Shown: in pieces, positions 29,830-52,312 of the stretch
Position numbering within the stretch: the first letter of the stretch is position 1
Layout of the letters: every line of letters starts with the position of its first letter
Source of the DNA: Streptococcus infantarius subsp. infantarius ATCC BAA-102
GTDB taxonomy: Bacteria > Bacillota > Bacilli > Lactobacillales > Streptococcaceae
Direction of reading: 5' to 3'
DNA: 64,000 nucleotides
NCBI RefSeq assembly: GCF_000154985.1
Contig: NZ_DS572694.1
Coordinates: 124,001-188,000 of the forward strand
Notes under the pieces: generated by a model
The model's database searches: none
What the model was told of the DNA's origin: nothing
What the model saw: only the letters and a program-made list of their open reading frames with translations
Translations under genes and position numbers: made by a program

Positions 29830-31551
29830 TTAAAACAAGAAGTAACGTTGCGATAAAGATGTCGTTTCAACAGGGTCACAAGTGACCACTTCGCCATCAA
29901 TGGTAACATCAAAAGTCAATGGATCAACAACAATCGTCTTAGGTGTATAATCGTTCAACTTCATATCACGTTTGGTGATATTGCGTGTATTATGCACTGG
30001 TAAAACAATTTTATCAAGTCCAATTTCTTCTTTAATACCATGATCATAAGCATATTGCGACACAAAGGTAATATTGGTTTCATGGACAGCTTTACCATAA
30101 GCGCCATAGAGTTTCCGCATAAGGCGTGGTTGAGGCGTTGGCAGACTAGATCCTGCATCTCCCATGACACCATAAGTTAACATACCGCATTTCAACACCA
30201 ATTTAGGCTTTGCCCCAAACTTATCTGGTTCCCAAATAACAAGATCGGCATATTTTCCAACCTCAACAGAACCAATATAATCTGATACCCCGTTTACAAT
30301 GGCAGGATTGATGGTATATTTGGCAACATAACGTTTAATCCGATTATTGTCATTATAATCTGAATCTCCTTCTAAAGGACCTCTTTGTGTTTTCATCTTA
30401 TCAGCCAACTGCCAACACCGCATAGCTACTTCACCAATACGTCCCATAGCCATAGCATCTGAAGTCATCACACTAATAGCCCCCATATCATGCAAAACAT
30501 CTTCTGCCGCTACCGTTTGTTTACGTACGCGAGATTCTGCAAAAGAAACATCTTCTGGGATTTTAGGATCTAAGTGGTGACAAACCATAACCATGTCAAG
30601 CAGTTCACCGATAGCATTTGTTGTGTAAGGATTGGTTGGATTGGTTGATGATGGCAAAATATTATCTTTACCAACAGCAATCATAATATCTGGAGCATGT
30701 CCTCCACCGGCTCCTTCTGTATGAAAGGTATGAACAGTGCGACCTTGGAAAGAAGACAAAGTATTTTCCATGAAACCACCTTCATTTAAGGAGTCCGTAT
30801 GAACAGCAAAGGAAACATCATACTTGTCAGCTACTTTCAGAGAATTATCAATCCCTGCATAAGTTGCTCCCCAGTCTTCGTGAGTTTTGATACCAGCAGC
30901 ACCGGCTTCAATTTGCTCAGAAATAACCTCTGGAACAGCACCGCTTCCTTTTGCTAAGAAACCAAAGTTAGCTGGCATATTGTCTACAGATTGAAGCATA
31001 CGATGAATGTGAAACTTCCCCGGTGTGCAAGTTGTCGAATTGGTTCCTTCCGCCGGTCCTGTACCACCACCAAAAAGTGTTGTAATACCATTATCCAAAC
31101 CAAACTCAGGAAGATCTGCTGAAATATAATGGACATGTAAATCCAGTCCGCCAGCAGTTACAATTAACCCTTCGGCTGAAATAGCTTCGGTGCTAGAACC
31201 TACAACAAAATCAATGTTATCCATATTATCTGGATTACCGCCCTTACCAATGGCAACAATTTTACCATCTCTAATACCAATATCCGCTTTAATAATACCA
31301 GTATAGTCAATAATGGTAGCACCGCTAATGATAGTATCAACAACAAAAGGATTGTCTTCTCTGCATTCCGTGGCATTGACCCCCATACCGTCACGTAGCA
31401 CTTTACCACCGCCATACATACTTTCTTGACCATAAACAGTATAGTCTTTTTCAACTGCAGCAAATAAATTTGTATCTCCCAGACGGATGCTATCTCCTAC
31501 TGTCGGTCCAAAAATTTCTGCATATTCTTCACGTTCCATTTTAAAGCTCAT
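29830..31551 (-). CDS. ureC: Urease alpha subunit UreC
   Basis: The 573-residue catalytic subunit of urease, splitting urea to ammonia and carbamate. Visible active-site parts: [11 protein letters not shown] (nickel-ligand HxH), [12 protein letters not shown] with the carbamylated Lys, [15 protein letters not shown], and the mobile flap [20 protein letters not shown] with the catalytic His. Complete length. It should assemble with UreA and UreB. It lies 15 bases after ureB and starts [10 protein letters not shown]. Confidence 0.97.
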
Positions 31552-43078: not shown

Positions 43079-43253
43079 TGTTGAATAAGCAACAACTTGT
43101 TGTGGCATTAACACTGTGTTAGATATCGTAAGAAAGGATTGAAATAGTGTTAAAGAACAGCCGACGTAACTATATTATTCGTTGCTAGATAATGAGTCAT
43201 TTTTAGGAATGATATTTATCTACTACCTTCTAACACTTTTAGGTTTTTTATTA

Positions 43254-45035
43254 ATGTATAAAGCAGGTATAGATGTCGGATCGACCACTGTTAAAGTTGT
43301 CATTTTCGATGATAATTATCAGTTACTATTTTCACGTTATGAGCGTCACTTTTCAGACGTCAAAACAGCAACTATCAAGGTTTTAAATGAAGCTATCTCA
43401 GAAATTGGTGACCACAAGGTCAGTATTGCCATAACTGGTTCTGGGGGAATGGGCTTAGCAGATGTTGCTAAAATTCCATTTGTCCAAGAAGTTATCGCAG
43501 CCACTACTACCGTTGAAAAATTCATCCCACAAACTGATGTCGTCATTGAACTTGGTGGTGAAGATGCCAAAATGACCTTTTTTGGTGATACTCTTGAACA
43601 ACGTATGAACGGGACATGTGCCGGTGGTACAGGTGCCTTCATCGACCAAATGGCTGGACTTTTAAAAACAGATGCCAACGGGGTCAATGAACTTGCCAAA
43701 GGTTACGAAACCATTTACCCAATTGCCAGCCGTTGTGGGGTATTTGCTAAAACTGACGTCCAACCCTTAATCAATGAAGGGGCCAGAAAAGAAGACATTG
43801 CAGCTTCGATTTTCCAAGCCGTTGTCAATCAAACTATTGCTGGATTAGCTTCTGGGCGTAAAATCACTGGAAATATTGCCTTTCTTGGTGGACCGCTCTT
43901 TTTTATGAGTGAACTTCGTAAGCGTTTCATTGAAACCCTTGATATCAAACCAGAACATGTGATTTTCCCTGAAAATCCACAACTTTTCGTTGCCATGGGA
44001 GCTGCTCTTGATGAGAACCAAACCCAAATCAACTTATCTGGAATCATTCATAATTTAGAAAATAATACTTCAAAATCCCTAGTTCCTAAAAATACTCTTG
44101 ATGTTCTTTTCAAAGATCAAGCTGAACTGGATGCTTGGCGCGCCCGTCACGATGAAGCTAGCGTTGAATACAAAGACATTACCACTGCTTCTGGGCCTCT
44201 TTTCCTTGGTATCGATGCAGGATCAACCACTTCAAAAGTTGTCCTCACAGATCCTAAAGGAGCTATTTTATTCCAACACTATGGCAATAACCAAGGACAA
44301 CCTCTTGAAAATGTTATTTCTATCCTAAAAGAACTCTATCTCCAATTGCCAGAAGATGCTTTCATTGCTCGTTCTTGCGTGACTGGATATGGTGAAAATT
44401 TGATTAAAGCTGCTCTTCACGTTGACTACGGTGAAGTTGAAACCGTTGCTCACTTTAAAGCTGCCAACTACTTCAACCCAGGTGTTGATTTTATCCTTGA
44501 TATTGGTGGTCAAGATATGAAAGCCATGAGTGTTCGCGATGGCGCTTTATCGAGTATCCAACTAAACGAAGCTTGCTCTTCAGGTTGCGGCTCATTTATT
44601 GAAACCTTTGCCAAATCTCTTAAATACGATGTCAAAGATTTTGCCAAAGTTGCTCTTCTTGCTAAGCACCCCGTTGACCTCGGCTCACGCTGCACAGTCT
44701 TTATGAACTCTAAGGTAAAACAAGTTCAAAAAGAAGGGGCTACGGTTGCTGATATTTCAGCAGGACTTTCATACTCTGTCATCAAAAACGCCCTTTACAA
44801 AGTTATCAAATTAAAACGTCCCGAAGATTTGGGTGAGAAAATCGTCGTTCAAGGTGGAACTTTCTACAATGAAGCTGTTCTTCGTGCCTTTGAACTCGTC
44901 AGCGAACGCGAAGTCGTTCGACCAAGCATTGCTGGACTTATGGGAGCTTATGGCTGCGCTATTATCTCTAAAGAAAAATATGAAGATGAACTAGCCAACC
45001 AAGAAGCTACTCTTGAAGTCAGCGCGGTACAGTAA
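43254..45035 (+). CDS. Acyl-CoA dehydratase activase, duplicated BcrA/BadF/HgdC-type ATPase
   Basis: A 593-residue ASKHA ATPase built of two halves. Each starts with a phosphate loop ([13 protein letters not shown] near residue 3 and [14 protein letters not shown] near 320), a Cys-Gly motif ([13 protein letters not shown] and [13 protein letters not shown]) and an SRC motif ([18 protein letters not shown]). In the dehydratase activases these Cys bridge a [4Fe-4S] cluster across a homodimer; here both sets are on one chain. It uses ATP to push an electron at low potential. I start at ATG 43254 because the family begins there; the ribosome site is weak. Confidence 0.85.
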
Positions 45036-45047
45036 AGGAGGAATTGC

Positions 45048-47627
45048 ATGACTGAAACATCACTTACAGCCAATCACACTAAGTCAAGTTTGATGGGGCT
45101 CGAAGAACTCGATCAATTTACTACTCAAAAAGAATTCACTCGTTGCGGCATGTGTGAAAACAACTGTGCACTGACTGTTACCATCTTCAACGACGGCTCA
45201 AAATTCGTTACTGGTAACCGCTGCGAACGCGGTGCTGAAAAAGTAACTAAAATCAAATTCGACCGCAGCAACCAAAAAGAAAATCTGGTTGATTACAAAT
45301 ATAAAAAACTCTTTAAATTTAAAGCACTCTCAAAACGTGACGCTGTCCACGGTGTCGTTGGAGTTCCACGTGTGCTCAACATGTACGAAAATTACCCACT
45401 TTGGCACACGGTCCTTACTGACTTGAAGTTTCGTGTTCAAATCTCACCAAAATCAGACAAACGTTTATTTGAAAAGGGAATCGAAACCATCCCAAGTGAT
45501 ACGGTTTGTTACCCTGCCAAAATGGTGCACGGTCACATTCAAAGTTTAATCGACCGCAAAGTAGATGCTATTTTCTACCCTAGTGTCATTTACGAACAAA
45601 TTGAAAATAGCAAAGCACCTAACCACTACAACTGCCCAATCGTCCAAAGTTATCCAGAAGTCATTGAAAAAAACATGGACCCTATCCGAAATGGTGAGGT
45701 CAAATACTTCCATCCATTTGTTAACTTGGCCGACCATGAATCTGTTGTCAAATCACTTGTCAAAAGCTTTGCTGATTATGATGACATTACAGAAGCTGAT
45801 ATTCGCGAAGCCGTTGAACATGGTTACCAAGTCTTAGCTGACTTCAAGAAATATTTGCAAGACAAGGCAGATGAGCTCCTTAGCAAGCTAGCCCTCAACA
45901 ATGAAAAAGCGATTGTGCTTTCTGGTCGTCCATATCACCTTGACCCTGAAATCAACCACGGGATTGCTAACATCATCACCCAAGAAGGTTTCCACGTTTT
46001 AACAGAAGATATGGTATCAGGTTTAGAAGAGGTAGCTGGTCTGCGCGTAGTTAACCAGTGGGTCTACCACTCACGTTTATACGCTGCTGCTAAAGTAGTC
46101 TCTAAAAATCCTAATCTTGAATTAGTCCAATTAAATAGTTTTGGTTGCGGACTTGATGCTGTAACAACGGACCAAGTCGAAGAAATCATGCGAGCTCACA
46201 ACAAACTTTACACTGTGCTAAAAATCGATGAAGGAAGCAACCTCGGTGCTATCCGTATTCGTCTTCGTTCCCTCAAAGCAGCCGTTGAAGAACGTGATAA
46301 GAAAGCTAAAAAAGCCAATCTTGACCACATTTTCAACCAAGCACCACAATTTAATAGCTCTGTTGATATTGAAGAAGTTAAAGAACCTGTCTTCACTAAA
46401 GAAATGAAGAAAAAACACACTCTTCTTATGCCGATGCTTTCACCTATTCACCAAAATGGTCTTATTGAAGAAGCCTTCAAACAAGCCGGTTATAACGTTG
46501 CTATTTTACCAGCTATGGACCGAAAAGCCGTTGATGTTGGTCTAAAATATGTCCACAATGATGCTTGCTACCCTGCTATTATCACTATCGGTCAGCTGAT
46601 TGAGGCACTTCAAAGTGGTAAATACGATCTCGAAAATACCAGTGTTATGATGACGCAAACAGGTGGTGGTTGCCGTGCAACAAACTATATTCCACTCTTA
46701 CGAAAAGCTCTAAAAGATGCCGGATATCCTCAAATTCCTGTTGTTTCTGTTTCTATGGGAAATCAAGGTACCGAAGAAACACCTGGTTGGAATATTACTT
46801 TACCATTTGTAAAACGTCTACTTATCAGTGTGCTTTATGGTGACCTCTTTGAGCGTGTGCTTTACCGTGTCCGTCCATATGAAGCCGTTCCAGGTTCTGC
46901 CAATGCTCTGTATGAAAAATGGTTAGAAATTGCCCGTAAAAATGTCAAATTAGGCTCATACTTCGAGTTCAATCACAATATGAAACGTATCATCAAAGAG
47001 TTTGACACACTTGAAACCATTGATTTTGGACAAAAACCACGAGTTGGTGTGGTAGGAGAAATTTTAGTTAAATATGCTCCTACAGCAAATAACGATATCG
47101 TTGCTATCATTGAAAATGAAGGTGGTGAAGCCGTTGTACCAGACTTGATTGGCTTTATGAATTACTCACTTTTCAACCAGATTTGGAAAGCTGACGAACT
47201 TAACATGAGTCAAAAATCAAAACGCTTAGCTAAACTTGGTATCGATGCTATCAATCTTCTTGAAAAACCAATGAATAAAGCTCTTGAAAAATCTGAGCGT
47301 TTCGAAGGAATTGAATCCATCTACGATATTGCAAAAGGTGCCGCAAAAGTCGTTTCAATCGGTAACCACACTGGTGAAGGTTGGTTCTTGACTGGTGAAA
47401 TGATTGAATTACTAAATAACGGTGTTAAAAATATCGTTTGTCTTCAACCATTTGGTTGTCTTCCAAACCACATCGTCGGAAAAGGAATGCTAAAAGAACT
47501 CCGCCGACAATTCAAAGGTGCCAATATCTCACCAATCGATTACGACCCAGGTTCATCAGAAGTTAACCAATTAAACCGTATCCGCTTGATGATGACAACC
47601 GCCAAAAAAATGCTAAAAGCAAATTAA
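45048..47627 (+). CDS. Activase partner protein with HGD-D/DUF2229 domains
   Basis: An 859-residue protein 12 bases after the activase, with GGAGG ahead of the ATG. Near residue 35 a Cys cluster (TRCGMCENNCALTV ... NRCERG) can bind an Fe-S cluster. The DUF2229-like part follows, and two dehydratase D-component-like parts hold NSFGCGLDAVTTDQVEE, TQTGGGCRATNYIPLLRKA and CLQPFGCLPNHIVGKGM. Elsewhere these and the activase halves can be fused in one chain of about 1400 residues. No hydroxyacyl-CoA dehydratase, transferase or carrier is next to it, so the substrate is unknown. Confidence 0.8.
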   Translation: MTETSLTANHTKSSLMGLEELDQFTTQKEFTRCGMCENNCALTVTIFNDGSKFVTGNRCERGAEKVTKIKFDRSNQKENLVDYKYKKLFKFKALSKRDAVHGVVGVPRVLNMYENYPLWHTVLTDLKFRVQISPKSDKRLFEKGIETIPSDTVCYPAKMVHGHIQSLIDRKVDAIFYPSVIYEQIENSKAPNHYNCPIVQSYPEVIEKNMDPIRNGEVKYFHPFVNLADHESVVKSLVKSFADYDDITEADIREAVEHGYQVLADFKKYLQDKADELLSKLALNNEKAIVLSGRPYHLDPEINHGIANIITQEGFHVLTEDMVSGLEEVAGLRVVNQWVYHSRLYAAAKVVSKNPNLELVQLNSFGCGLDAVTTDQVEEIMRAHNKLYTVLKIDEGSNLGAIRIRLRSLKAAVEERDKKAKKANLDHIFNQAPQFNSSVDIEEVKEPVFTKEMKKKHTLLMPMLSPIHQNGLIEEAFKQAGYNVAILPAMDRKAVDVGLKYVHNDACYPAIITIGQLIEALQSGKYDLENTSVMMTQTGGGCRATNYIPLLRKALKDAGYPQIPVVSVSMGNQGTEETPGWNITLPFVKRLLISVLYGDLFERVLYRVRPYEAVPGSANALYEKWLEIARKNVKLGSYFEFNHNMKRIIKEFDTLETIDFGQKPRVGVVGEILVKYAPTANNDIVAIIENEGGEAVVPDLIGFMNYSLFNQIWKADELNMSQKSKRLAKLGIDAINLLEKPMNKALEKSERFEGIESIYDIAKGAAKVVSIGNHTGEGWFLTGEMIELLNNGVKNIVCLQPFGCLPNHIVGKGMLKELRRQFKGANISPIDYDPGSSEVNQLNRIRLMMTTAKKMLKAN

Positions 47628-48183: not shown

Positions 48184-48212
48184 TTTACAAAAAGGCGATT
48201 TGTTTATATAAT
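48184..48212 (+). promoter_or_regulatory. Promoter of the preQ1 riboswitch operon
   Basis: TTTACA (48184-48189), 17-bp spacer, TATAAT (48207-48212); predicted start near 48219. Confidence 0.75.
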
Positions 48213-48245
48213 AGAAGGCGTGCATAATCAAAAGTACTACTTTTG

Positions 48246-48280
48246 GACTGGTTCGAAAACTCCCAGAATAAAAAACTAGC
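48246..48280 (+). promoter_or_regulatory. PreQ1-I riboswitch aptamer
   Basis: CTGG - TTCGAAAACTC - CCAG forms the P1 stem and loop, followed at once by AATAAAAAACTAG, the A-rich tail that docks in the stem groove. The pattern GGTTC ... CCC ... ATAAAAAACTA is that of the known class I preQ1 aptamer. It lies about 110 nt upstream of a nucleoside hydrolase and an ECF S-component. Confidence 0.85.
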
Positions 48281-48293
48281 TATCTACAAATTG

Positions 48294-48322
48294 AGACCTG
48301 CTCTTTGTTGAGCGTCTTTTTT
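48294..48322 (+). terminator. First leader terminator of the preQ1 operon
   Basis: AGAC-GCTC / GAGC-GTCT hairpin (two-base bulge) followed by TTTTTT. Just after the aptamer, so it is the likely expression platform. Confidence 0.65.
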
Positions 48323-48325
48323 GAG

Positions 48326-48359
48326 TGGCTTTGTTTTTTAGAAAACAAGGTCATTTTTT
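48326..48359 (+). terminator. Second leader terminator of the preQ1 operon
   Basis: TGGCTTTGTTTT / AAAACAAGGTCA (two G-U pairs, loop TTAG) followed by TTTTTT, three bases after the first terminator. Confidence 0.7.
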
Positions 48360-48394
48360 ATTTTCTATAATTATTCTTAAGAAAGGAGGAAAAG

Positions 48395-49378
48395 ATGACT
48401 AAGCAAAAAATTATTATCGATTGTGATCCTGGTATCGACGATACACTTGCACTACTTTATGCCCTTAAACATCCAAATTTAGAAGTCGTTGCAATCACCA
48501 TCGTCGCTGGAAATTGTCCAACAGATATCGGCGTTAAAAATACTTTTACAAGCCTAGAACTGCTTGATCGACTAGATGTTCCTGTCTACCAAGGAGCTAG
48601 TACACCGCTAACACGAGATTACATTTCTGCCCAAGATACTCATGGTATGGACGGGCTTGGCGAAAATAATTTCCAACTCAAACACACTCCTCATATTCAA
48701 GATAAATCAGCAGAGCAATTTTTAGCCGATTACTTTAAAGCCCCTACAGATACTTCTATCATTGCCCTAGGTCCGTTAACCAATATCGCAAAAGCTCTTG
48801 AACTAAATCCTAAGCTCGGCGAAAACTGTCACCGTTTTGTCAGCATGGGAGGAAATTTCAAATCACACGGCAATTGTTCACCTGTTGCTGAATACAACTA
48901 CTGGTGCGACCCTCATGCGGCACAAATCACTTTTGAACGTTTAGGTCGCAAAGTCGAAATGGTCGGGCTTGACGTCACTCGCCACATTGTCTTAACACCA
49001 AATCATTTAGAATATATGAGTCGTATTAACGCTGAAATGACAGCATTCATCACAAAGATTACCCGTTTTTACTTTGATTTTCACTGGAAATACGAACATA
49101 TCATTGGCTGTGTGATTAATGACCCTCTTGCATTGGCATATTTTGTCAACAGTGAGGTCTGCACAGGTTTTGAGGCTTACACTGATGTTGTTACTGACGG
49201 CATCGCTATTGGGCAAACTGTCGTCGATCAATACGATTTTTACCACAAACCTAAGAACAGTACTATTTTGACTCAGGTTAACCCAAGCCTATTCTGGGAA
49301 GATTTTCTAACCGTACTTTTAGATGCACAAAAAGACATCATTCAAGATGATCTCAAAAATCTAAAGTTAGAAAGTTAA
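48395..49378 (+). CDS. Nucleoside hydrolase, probable queuosine hydrolase (QueK-like)
   Basis: A 327-residue inosine/uridine-preferring hydrolase fold. Calcium motif IIDCDPGIDDTLALL, ALGPLTNIAKAL, VSMGGNF, and the C-terminal ligand in INDPLALAYF. It cuts the N-glycosidic bond of a nucleoside. Under a preQ1 riboswitch and with an ECF S-component next to it, the best guess is cleavage of queuosine to queuine, as shown for QueK of C. difficile. The evidence is genomic context; ordinary purine or pyrimidine nucleosides remain possible. Confidence 0.82.
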   Translation: MTKQKIIIDCDPGIDDTLALLYALKHPNLEVVAITIVAGNCPTDIGVKNTFTSLELLDRLDVPVYQGASTPLTRDYISAQDTHGMDGLGENNFQLKHTPHIQDKSAEQFLADYFKAPTDTSIIALGPLTNIAKALELNPKLGENCHRFVSMGGNFKSHGNCSPVAEYNYWCDPHAAQITFERLGRKVEMVGLDVTRHIVLTPNHLEYMSRINAEMTAFITKITRFYFDFHWKYEHIIGCVINDPLALAYFVNSEVCTGFEAYTDVVTDGIAIGQTVVDQYDFYHKPKNSTILTQVNPSLFWEDFLTVLLDAQKDIIQDDLKNLKLES

Positions 49379-49381
49379 ATT

Positions 49382-49939
49382 ATGAAAAATTCATCAATTC
49401 GTATCATTTCTTTTATGGCAATTGCCATTGCAATTAACTATATCGGCGCAAATATCGCTTTATTCTTACGTCTGCCAATTTATCTTGATATGATTGGAAC
49501 ATTGTTGGTCGCTGTTGTCTTTGGACCATGGCTTGGTGCTGGTGCTGCCATTGTCAGCGCATTAATCAGCTGGATGACGACTGATATCTTTGCTATTTAC
49601 TTTGCACCTGTAGCTATCGTAGCTGCTTTTATTGCAGGTTTCTTAGTTAAAGAAACAAGCAAATCAAAAGACTTAATCTGGAAAAGCTTACTTGTCTCAC
49701 TTCCTGGAACAGTTGTTTCATCAAGTATCACAGTCATTCTTTTCCATGGTATTACTTCAAGTGGTTCTGGCATCTTGGCACAAATTCTTCACAGCTTAGG
49801 CATTGACATGACAGCAAGTTTAGTTTTGGTTCAAGCCATTACTGACTATGCTGACCGTCTCATTAGCCTTGCTTTGGTACTTGCTATCATCAAATCACTC
49901 AAAACTTTTGCGCCAAACCTTATGACTGCTAAAAACTAA
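49382..49939 (+). CDS. ECF transporter S-component, probable queuosine/queuine type (QrtT-like)
   Basis: A 185-residue membrane protein with about six segments: IISFMAIAIAINYIGANIALFLRLP, LDMIGTLLVAVVFGPWLGAGAAI, and helices to the C-terminus. It has the fold of ECF substrate-capture proteins, which share a common EcfAA'T module encoded elsewhere. Its start is 3 bases after the hydrolase stop. Riboswitch control points to a 7-deazaguanine ligand. Specificity is inferred. Confidence 0.8.
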   Translation: MKNSSIRIISFMAIAIAINYIGANIALFLRLPIYLDMIGTLLVAVVFGPWLGAGAAIVSALISWMTTDIFAIYFAPVAIVAAFIAGFLVKETSKSKDLIWKSLLVSLPGTVVSSSITVILFHGITSSGSGILAQILHSLGIDMTASLVLVQAITDYADRLISLALVLAIIKSLKTFAPNLMTAKN

Positions 49940-51868: not shown

Positions 51869-52312
51869 TTACTCTGACAGTTTTGTCAGTTTAATCTTAT
51901 TAATTTTAGTTTTTGAACTACTGATAGTAACGCGGTAAGTCAATTCTTTTTTACCGCCTTCCCAATCTTGGCAATAGGTTAAATGAAATTGCGTCTGACC
52001 AGCTTTTTTGACTTTTCCGGTCACACGACTGTAGCCACCAGACCCGACTCGATTGTCTTTACTAGGATAAGCTTGATAAACAATATCATCTAAGGTGTAA
52101 TTTTCCTTATCCACATCACTGGCAGTCCAAGTATAACCAGTCGTGCTGTTGCTAGCCAGATCAATCTCAAAACGCATGCCCTTGGAAGTAACCGAGTAAT
52201 CCCCCAGTTTGGTTAATTCTGGGGAAGTTGGTTTAAAATGAATGCCAAGTCCAACTGCAACAATTCCTGAAAAAGCAACTAATGCAATAATAAGTTTTCG
52301 TTTTTTGGACAT
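51869..52312 (-). CDS. Secreted chagasin-type cysteine protease inhibitor (I42)
   Basis: A 147-residue protein with a signal/anchor segment (LIIALVAFSGIVAVGLGI). Its body matches the inhibitor I42 fold: ASNSTTGYTWTA (the NPTTGY loop with Ser for Pro), RVGSGGYSR (the GxGG loop) and YCQDWEGG in place of the RPW loop. Chagasins block papain-type cysteine proteases. It sits between aspC and asnS in an otherwise conserved operon. The family match is good; the target protease is unknown. Confidence 0.75.
   Translation of the reverse strand: MSKKRKLIIALVAFSGIVAVGLGIHFKPTSPELTKLGDYSVTSKGMRFEIDLASNSTTGYTWTASDVDKENYTLDDIVYQAYPSKDNRVGSGGYSRVTGKVKKAGQTQFHLTYCQDWEGGKKELTYRVTISSSKTKINKIKLTKLSE

Follow-up and report, generated by a model that had tools for sequence, protein, structure and literature searches.

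The window analysed here, a 64,000-nucleotide stretch of the genome of Streptococcus infantarius subsp. infantarius ATCC BAA-102, carries a preQ1-I aptamer followed by genes for a nucleoside hydrolase and a probable ECF transporter S-component, and sequence comparison supports the view that these two genes form a queK-qrtT module of the C. difficile kind, serving queuosine salvage. The pair is already known from gut clostridia; the enzyme expected to act next, QueL, was found in no streptococcal, enterococcal or lactobacillus-type genome searched. With moderate confidence, we read the locus as a queK-qrtT-type operon for the salvage of queuosine or queuine that is repressed by preQ1 and would depend on an enzyme other than QueL to make preQ1 from queuine.

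The leader contains a promoter-like site, TTTACA-17-TATAAT (48184–48212, forward strand), that agrees with the consensus in 11 of 12 letters; shuffles of the region yield 1.9 such sites on average, and by itself the site is not significant. The aptamer matches Rfam family RF00522 at 48242–48285 on the forward strand; it scores 42.4 bits, above the gathering cut-off of 39 (E 3e-05 for the 64 kb window searched). An initial reading of the sequence by a model (the first-pass annotation) had recognized here a preQ1-I aptamer with a CTGG/CCAG stem and its tail and had proposed a covariance search of 48200–48300; the search of the whole window returned the above-threshold match just given, and the stem strands (CTGG at 48248–48251, CCAG at 48263–48266) and the tail AATAAAAAACTAG (48267–48279) can all be read in the sequence. 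The UU that follows the 5' strand of P1 (48252–48253), the UC that precedes the 3' strand (48261–48262) and the tail C at 48276 assign the aptamer to type I, according to the published rule of UU and UC flanks of P1 and a C in the tail (PMC11625349). Two stacked preQ1 molecules in a single pocket have been described for a type I riboswitch (PMC8752633).

Two terminator-like hairpins are predicted between the aptamer and the hydrolase gene on the forward strand, compared with an average of 0.2 in shuffled sequences: the first spans 48299–48322, with its stem-loop at 48299–48314 and a T run, and the second spans 48323–48356, with a T run behind it. In the minimum-energy fold of the leader (z −2.98), the segment UAAAAAAC of the tail (48269–48276), the candidate first strand of an antiterminator, pairs with 48333–48340, inside hairpin 2. 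Since a tail held by preQ1 would thereby let the terminator form, the leader probably has the usual OFF-switch form, in which terminator and antiterminator are predicted to be mutually exclusive and preQ1 would repress. When preQ1 is plentiful, the aptamer would keep the A-rich tail in a pseudoknot, hairpin 2 would form and transcription would stop; when it is absent, the tail would pair with 48333–48340 and transcription would continue. Together with the Rfam score, this predicted arrangement supports the preQ1-I control that had been proposed at the outset. A Shine-Dalgarno sequence, GGAGG, lies at 48385–48389 on the same strand. Many Enterococcus leaders, examined with a simple pattern, have only about 30 bases between the tail and the start codon and lack a terminator, and control in leaders of this short type is therefore probably translational.

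An additional hairpin, designated P0 (48228–48246, forward strand), ends one base 5' of P1; its stem, UCAAAAG/CUUUUGG, is mostly present in the minimum-energy fold and covaries in relatives. Alignment with MAFFT and RNAalifold missed P0, since the variable length of its loop led to misaligned arms, and covariation was then scored by counting stems after swapping arms between sequences. A stem of at least five closing at the same base is found in 43 of the 55 distinct 26-mers upstream of the relatives' aptamers, and the mean stem length is 5.67, compared with 3.81 for swapped arms (maximum of 4.16 in 500 swaps). The inner pairs vary among A-U, G-C, C-G and U-A, and the UC/GG base of the stem is nearly invariant. 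Among the six leaders of clostridial loci that carry a short-chain dehydrogenase gene, discussed below, five have a stem of at most three bases and one (L098) has a stem of six. P0 could stack on P1 and aid its folding. The window's aptamer thus shares the P1 flanks and the tail C with the type I riboswitches described in PMC11625349 and differs from them in the conserved 5' hairpin that abuts P1, such that the Rfam match begins inside the 3' arm of P0; a literature search for such a P0 retrieved no paper on a preQ1 riboswitch, judged by title.

The hydrolase gene (48395–49378, forward strand) encodes a QueK-like protein of 327 amino acids that belongs to family PF01156 (E 9.8e-90) and is 96% identical to a protein of S. 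equinus Sb05 and 97% identical to the copies in two Streptococcus genomes, which places the window within or close to the S. equinus group; its AlphaFold-type model has a mean pLDDT of 91.3, with loop 162–169 below 50. The second open reading frame (49382–49939, forward strand) starts three bases past the hydrolase stop and encodes a 185-residue membrane protein that we tentatively assign to the QrtT-like ECF S-components on the basis of its context, its helical model and a match to PF12822 just below the cut-off (29.5 bits, cut-off 30.7). It also matches NF045596 with an E-value of 9.6e-22 and 77.5 bits, where the cut-off is 180, and the AlphaFold model is all-helical (mean pLDDT 90.9) and compatible with six membrane helices. 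An IunH-type hydrolase with an S-component gene three bases on had been called from the letters alone; the hydrolase and the spacing of the two genes are borne out, and the S-component is probable. Elsewhere in the window, we observed a match to the Rfam 5' ureB sRNA family (31105–31398, 74.7 bits) on the strand opposite to a 573-codon open reading frame (29830–31551), two neighbouring open reading frames related to acyl-CoA dehydratase activases (43182–47627; TIGR00241 and DUF2229) and a gene for a Chagasin-family (I42) peptidase inhibitor (51869–52312).

The distribution of the module was surveyed in 147 Streptococcus genomes, and all genome-wide statements made here concern such relatives and not the window's own genome. 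RF00522 matches occur in 20 of the 147, with 19 scoring over the cut-off, and exactly the same 19 genomes (hereafter carriers) encode a hydrolase at or above 60% identity, a co-occurrence that argues against a chance association. The remaining genome, G131, has a below-threshold match in which a P1 pair is broken; the match lies some 200 bases away from where the fetched sequence ends, and no hydrolase was found in this genome. Six further genomes encode distant hydrolases only (27–47% identity), without RF00522. One carrier (G125) has a second hydrolase copy, 57% identical (L190, 1495–2475), with no aptamer match or S-component beside it, and in Streptococcus didelphis the hydrolase match (L039, 6001–6975) is split across two reading frames.

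In a broader sample, consisting of the best 80 of 181 hydrolase relatives found in genome contigs, a relative of the S-component lies downstream of the hydrolase in all 80 loci. A 20-aptamer model, built from the window and 19 of these loci, which match by construction, recognizes the window and 79 of the best 80 loci, 77 of them with at least 54 bits; the two weak matches are L087 (23.6 bits) and L097 (21.5 bits), and the single miss, L081, has only 127 bases of upstream sequence. In L089 the aptamer sits between the two genes. No third gene common to the Lactobacillales loci was seen beside the pair among these best 80 of 181. The pair with its aptamer is also borne on plasmids (L211, L212), namely pCF3A-343-2 of Enterococcus faecalis and pLPCN-2 of Lacticaseibacillus paracasei, the latter typed as conjugative. 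In Enterococcus cecorum, two loci of which (L059 and L060) carry the hydrolase/S-component pair, the same arrangement of a preQ1 riboswitch and a nucleoside hydrolase has been published as a site where a prophage inserts (PMC10117131); the main text of that report does not contain the term queuosine and does not mention queuosine salvage.

The identification with queK-qrtT follows from gene linkage, as orthologues of both proteins share an operon with QueL: the third gene encodes a radical-SAM protein in 18 of the best 80 of 181 loci. The protein of L066 matches the structure 6P78, 'Queuine lyase', with an E-value of 1.6e-80, and the other 17 are 67–90% identical to it. In C. difficile, a preQ1-I riboswitch precedes queK, qrtT and queL (PMC11477304), and the reported targets of preQ1 riboswitches include queCDEF, queT and yhhQ (PMC11625349) as well as queK, queL and qrtT (PMC12519234). 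The streptococcal locus resembles that of C. difficile in having the riboswitch before hydrolase and S-component genes and differs in that no queL adjoins them and none was found in related Lactobacillales genomes. By family (PF01156) and by linkage to qrtT and queL the hydrolase qualifies as QueK-like, with the queL linkage being seen in orthologues (the same 18 loci); in the window itself, the S-component is its sole linked module partner. The first-pass annotation had proposed both a queK-qrtT-type salvage and the lack of a QueL-type lyase next to the genes, and on both points the comparative data agree with it.

No Lactobacillales genus is named in the record titles of the 18 QueL-bearing loci, two of which do not reveal the order. 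Whole-genome profile searches found no QueL in any of the 19 carrier streptococci or in G131, in any of seven other Lactobacillales or in any of nine more Lactobacillales, three of them streptococci; overall, QueL was found in none of 35 Lactobacillales carriers, a number in which species shared by the two collections may appear twice. The 12-row search profile reaches divergent QueL proteins (239 bits in G167, 213 bits in G168) and identified seven positive genomes, all outside Lactobacillales, five of which were expected from their operons. On these counts, the indirect pathway of QueK and QueL, as known, probably does not operate in the Lactobacillales carriers searched, and the early suggestion that a lyase lies elsewhere in the genome finds no support in the relatives searched. 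In the literature passages searched for QueK in streptococci or enterococci, including those of PMC11130926, where QueK families are treated broadly, we found no statement about QueK without QueL, although one may be in print.

The alternative offered at the same time, that queuine is used directly by a queuine-accepting Tgt, is likewise not supported as it was worded. A tgt gene is present in all 14 carriers searched, and the Tgt pocket, checked in 15 of the 20 genomes with RF00522 matches (14 carriers and G131), has the preQ1-type motif GGLAVG in each of the 14 carrier streptococci examined, out of 19. Queuine-salvaging Tgts typically contain GG[LS][AS]G, and the Tgt of Bartonella henselae, with GGLAVG, can nevertheless process queuine at elevated concentration (PMC11570991), so that a queuine-type Tgt is weakened as a candidate by a motif that is typical and not absolute. 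The other queuosine genes are largely retained. queA is found in 18 of the 19 carriers, queH and/or queG in all 19 (G125 has queH beside a broken queG match) and queT in all 19. queC is found in four carriers, in one of them with an in-frame stop; these four have hydrolases 89–97% identical to that of the window and are its nearest relatives, and salvage is therefore not obligatory there. For these assignments, we take TIGR00276 to be QueG and TIGR00364 to be QueC. Of the genes that were to be looked for according to the first-pass annotation, tgt and queG (or queH) are thus present in the relatives, and queL was not found in the Lactobacillales carriers searched. With queA and queG or queH retained, 18 of the 19 carriers could finish preQ1 to queuosine. 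Only one of the 147 Streptococcus genomes lacks a match to queA, namely the carrier G006, whose Tgt has GGLAVG.

Since no QueL was found and the Tgt is of the preQ1 type, queuine must either be converted to preQ1 by an as yet unrecognised enzyme or enter tRNA via the preQ1-type Tgt. The second route, in which the hydrolase frees queuine and the Tgt inserts it as such, with no lyase needed, we regard as rather unlikely. It would fit the absence of QueL from the 35 carriers and has a precedent in the B. henselae enzyme, and the queA-less G006 accords better with direct insertion than with a missing enzyme. Against it stand the GGLAVG pockets, that of G006 included, the retention of queA and of queG or queH in nearly all carriers, and the preQ1 switch itself, which makes most sense if preQ1 is the product. 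The same features distinguish the carriers from Chlamydia trachomatis, where direct queuine salvage likewise operates without QueL (PMC11570991): their Tgt pocket is of the preQ1 type, and nearly all of them keep queA and queG or queH.

A hydrolase that acts not on queuosine but on the riboside of preQ1 or preQ0, yielding preQ1 or preQ0 directly, would account for both the absence of QueL and the preQ1 switch. However, no alignment column separates the QueL-linked hydrolases or S-components (17) from the other 64, among which L100, later found to be QueL-linked, was counted (the test required different majority residues at more than 85% in each group), and the two sets of proteins therefore probably share a substrate. 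Free preQ1 riboside would, moreover, presumably be a rare nutrient, and we consider this alternative improbable. With RihA, RihC and UriH, the window's hydrolase shares the PF01156 family and the Asp-rich DCDPGIDD motif; it differs from them in a conserved NCSPVAEYNYWCDP stretch and in Asn242, which stands where five aligned PDB chains, including two of RihA, have the His of the HDP motif and is invariant across the 39 hydrolases of alignment A4. A 7-deazapurine base lacks an N7 that could be protonated. That the operon comprises an ordinary inosine/uridine hydrolase and an unrelated vitamin-type S-component under a coincidental riboswitch is very improbable: the nearest NCBIfam families are indeed of the RihA, RihC and UriH types, but all far below their cut-offs, and the S-component profile has two matches in the PDB, one to a folate S-component (E 6e-05) and one to a protein entered as 'conserved hypothetical membrane protein' (E 1.7e-04), but the aptamer accompanies 79 of the best 80 of 181 loci, co-occurs exactly with the hydrolase in 147 genomes, and is joined by QueL as an operon partner and by the changed active-site motif.

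In the reading that we prefer, salvage through an enzyme other than QueL, the S-component, together with the cell's shared ECF module, would import queuosine or queuine, and the hydrolase would cleave queuosine to queuine and ribose. Queuine would be converted to preQ1 by the missing enzyme, whose existence is suggested by the absences in relatives; the ordinary Tgt would then insert preQ1, and QueA and QueG or QueH would finish it to queuosine. A candidate comes from six clostridial loci (L073, L079, L085, L096, L098 and L099; titled Blautia or Lachnospiraceae, with L098 from Anaerofilum), in which a gene for a short-chain dehydrogenase (SDR) takes the place of queL. A relative of it lies nearby on the opposite strand in L082 and L086, and in L097 a different SDR follows the pair by 9 bases; a relative of that SDR, 66% identical, occurs in L079 as well. 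Profile searches found QueL in none of these nine genomes. Two loci, L063 and L071, adjoin neither QueL nor an SDR, and a divergent QueL is encoded at another place in their genomes. L087 and L089, two carriers that do not belong to Lactobacillales, likewise adjoin neither gene, and no QueL was found in their genomes. The divergent QueL gene of the L063 genome (L206, 1480–2211) is preceded by a weak aptamer-like sequence (12.2 bits) and followed at 2201–2920 by a frame that, by eye, looks like a QPTR-type transporter.

These loci lead us to suggest, tentatively and as a possibility short of even, a second, non-radical route from queuine to preQ1, which the SDR would start in clostridia and another, unlinked enzyme in Lactobacillales, with queK-qrtT as a shared entrance to several exits. 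Oxidation of the cyclopentenediol by the dehydrogenase would allow the ring to come away from the aminomethyl group. The dehydrogenase has no PDB relative at an E-value of 1e-15, and no close relative was found in 32 genomes of Streptococcus and other Lactobacillales, in which the best-scoring matches are to generic SDRs (38–41% identity over part of the protein); no paper linking queuine with a short-chain dehydrogenase was found by title in the literature search.

Queuine is a micronutrient that animals obtain from food and gut bacteria (PMC4425180). If its salvage in streptococci, enterococci and lactobacilli proceeds with neither QueL nor a queuine-type Tgt, genome-based predictions miss a pathway, which would affect the assignment of makers, users and competitors for queuine in the gut and the mouth. 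The two-gene operon would then offer a handle on the missing enzyme, with the dehydrogenase found in the place of queL as the first candidate.
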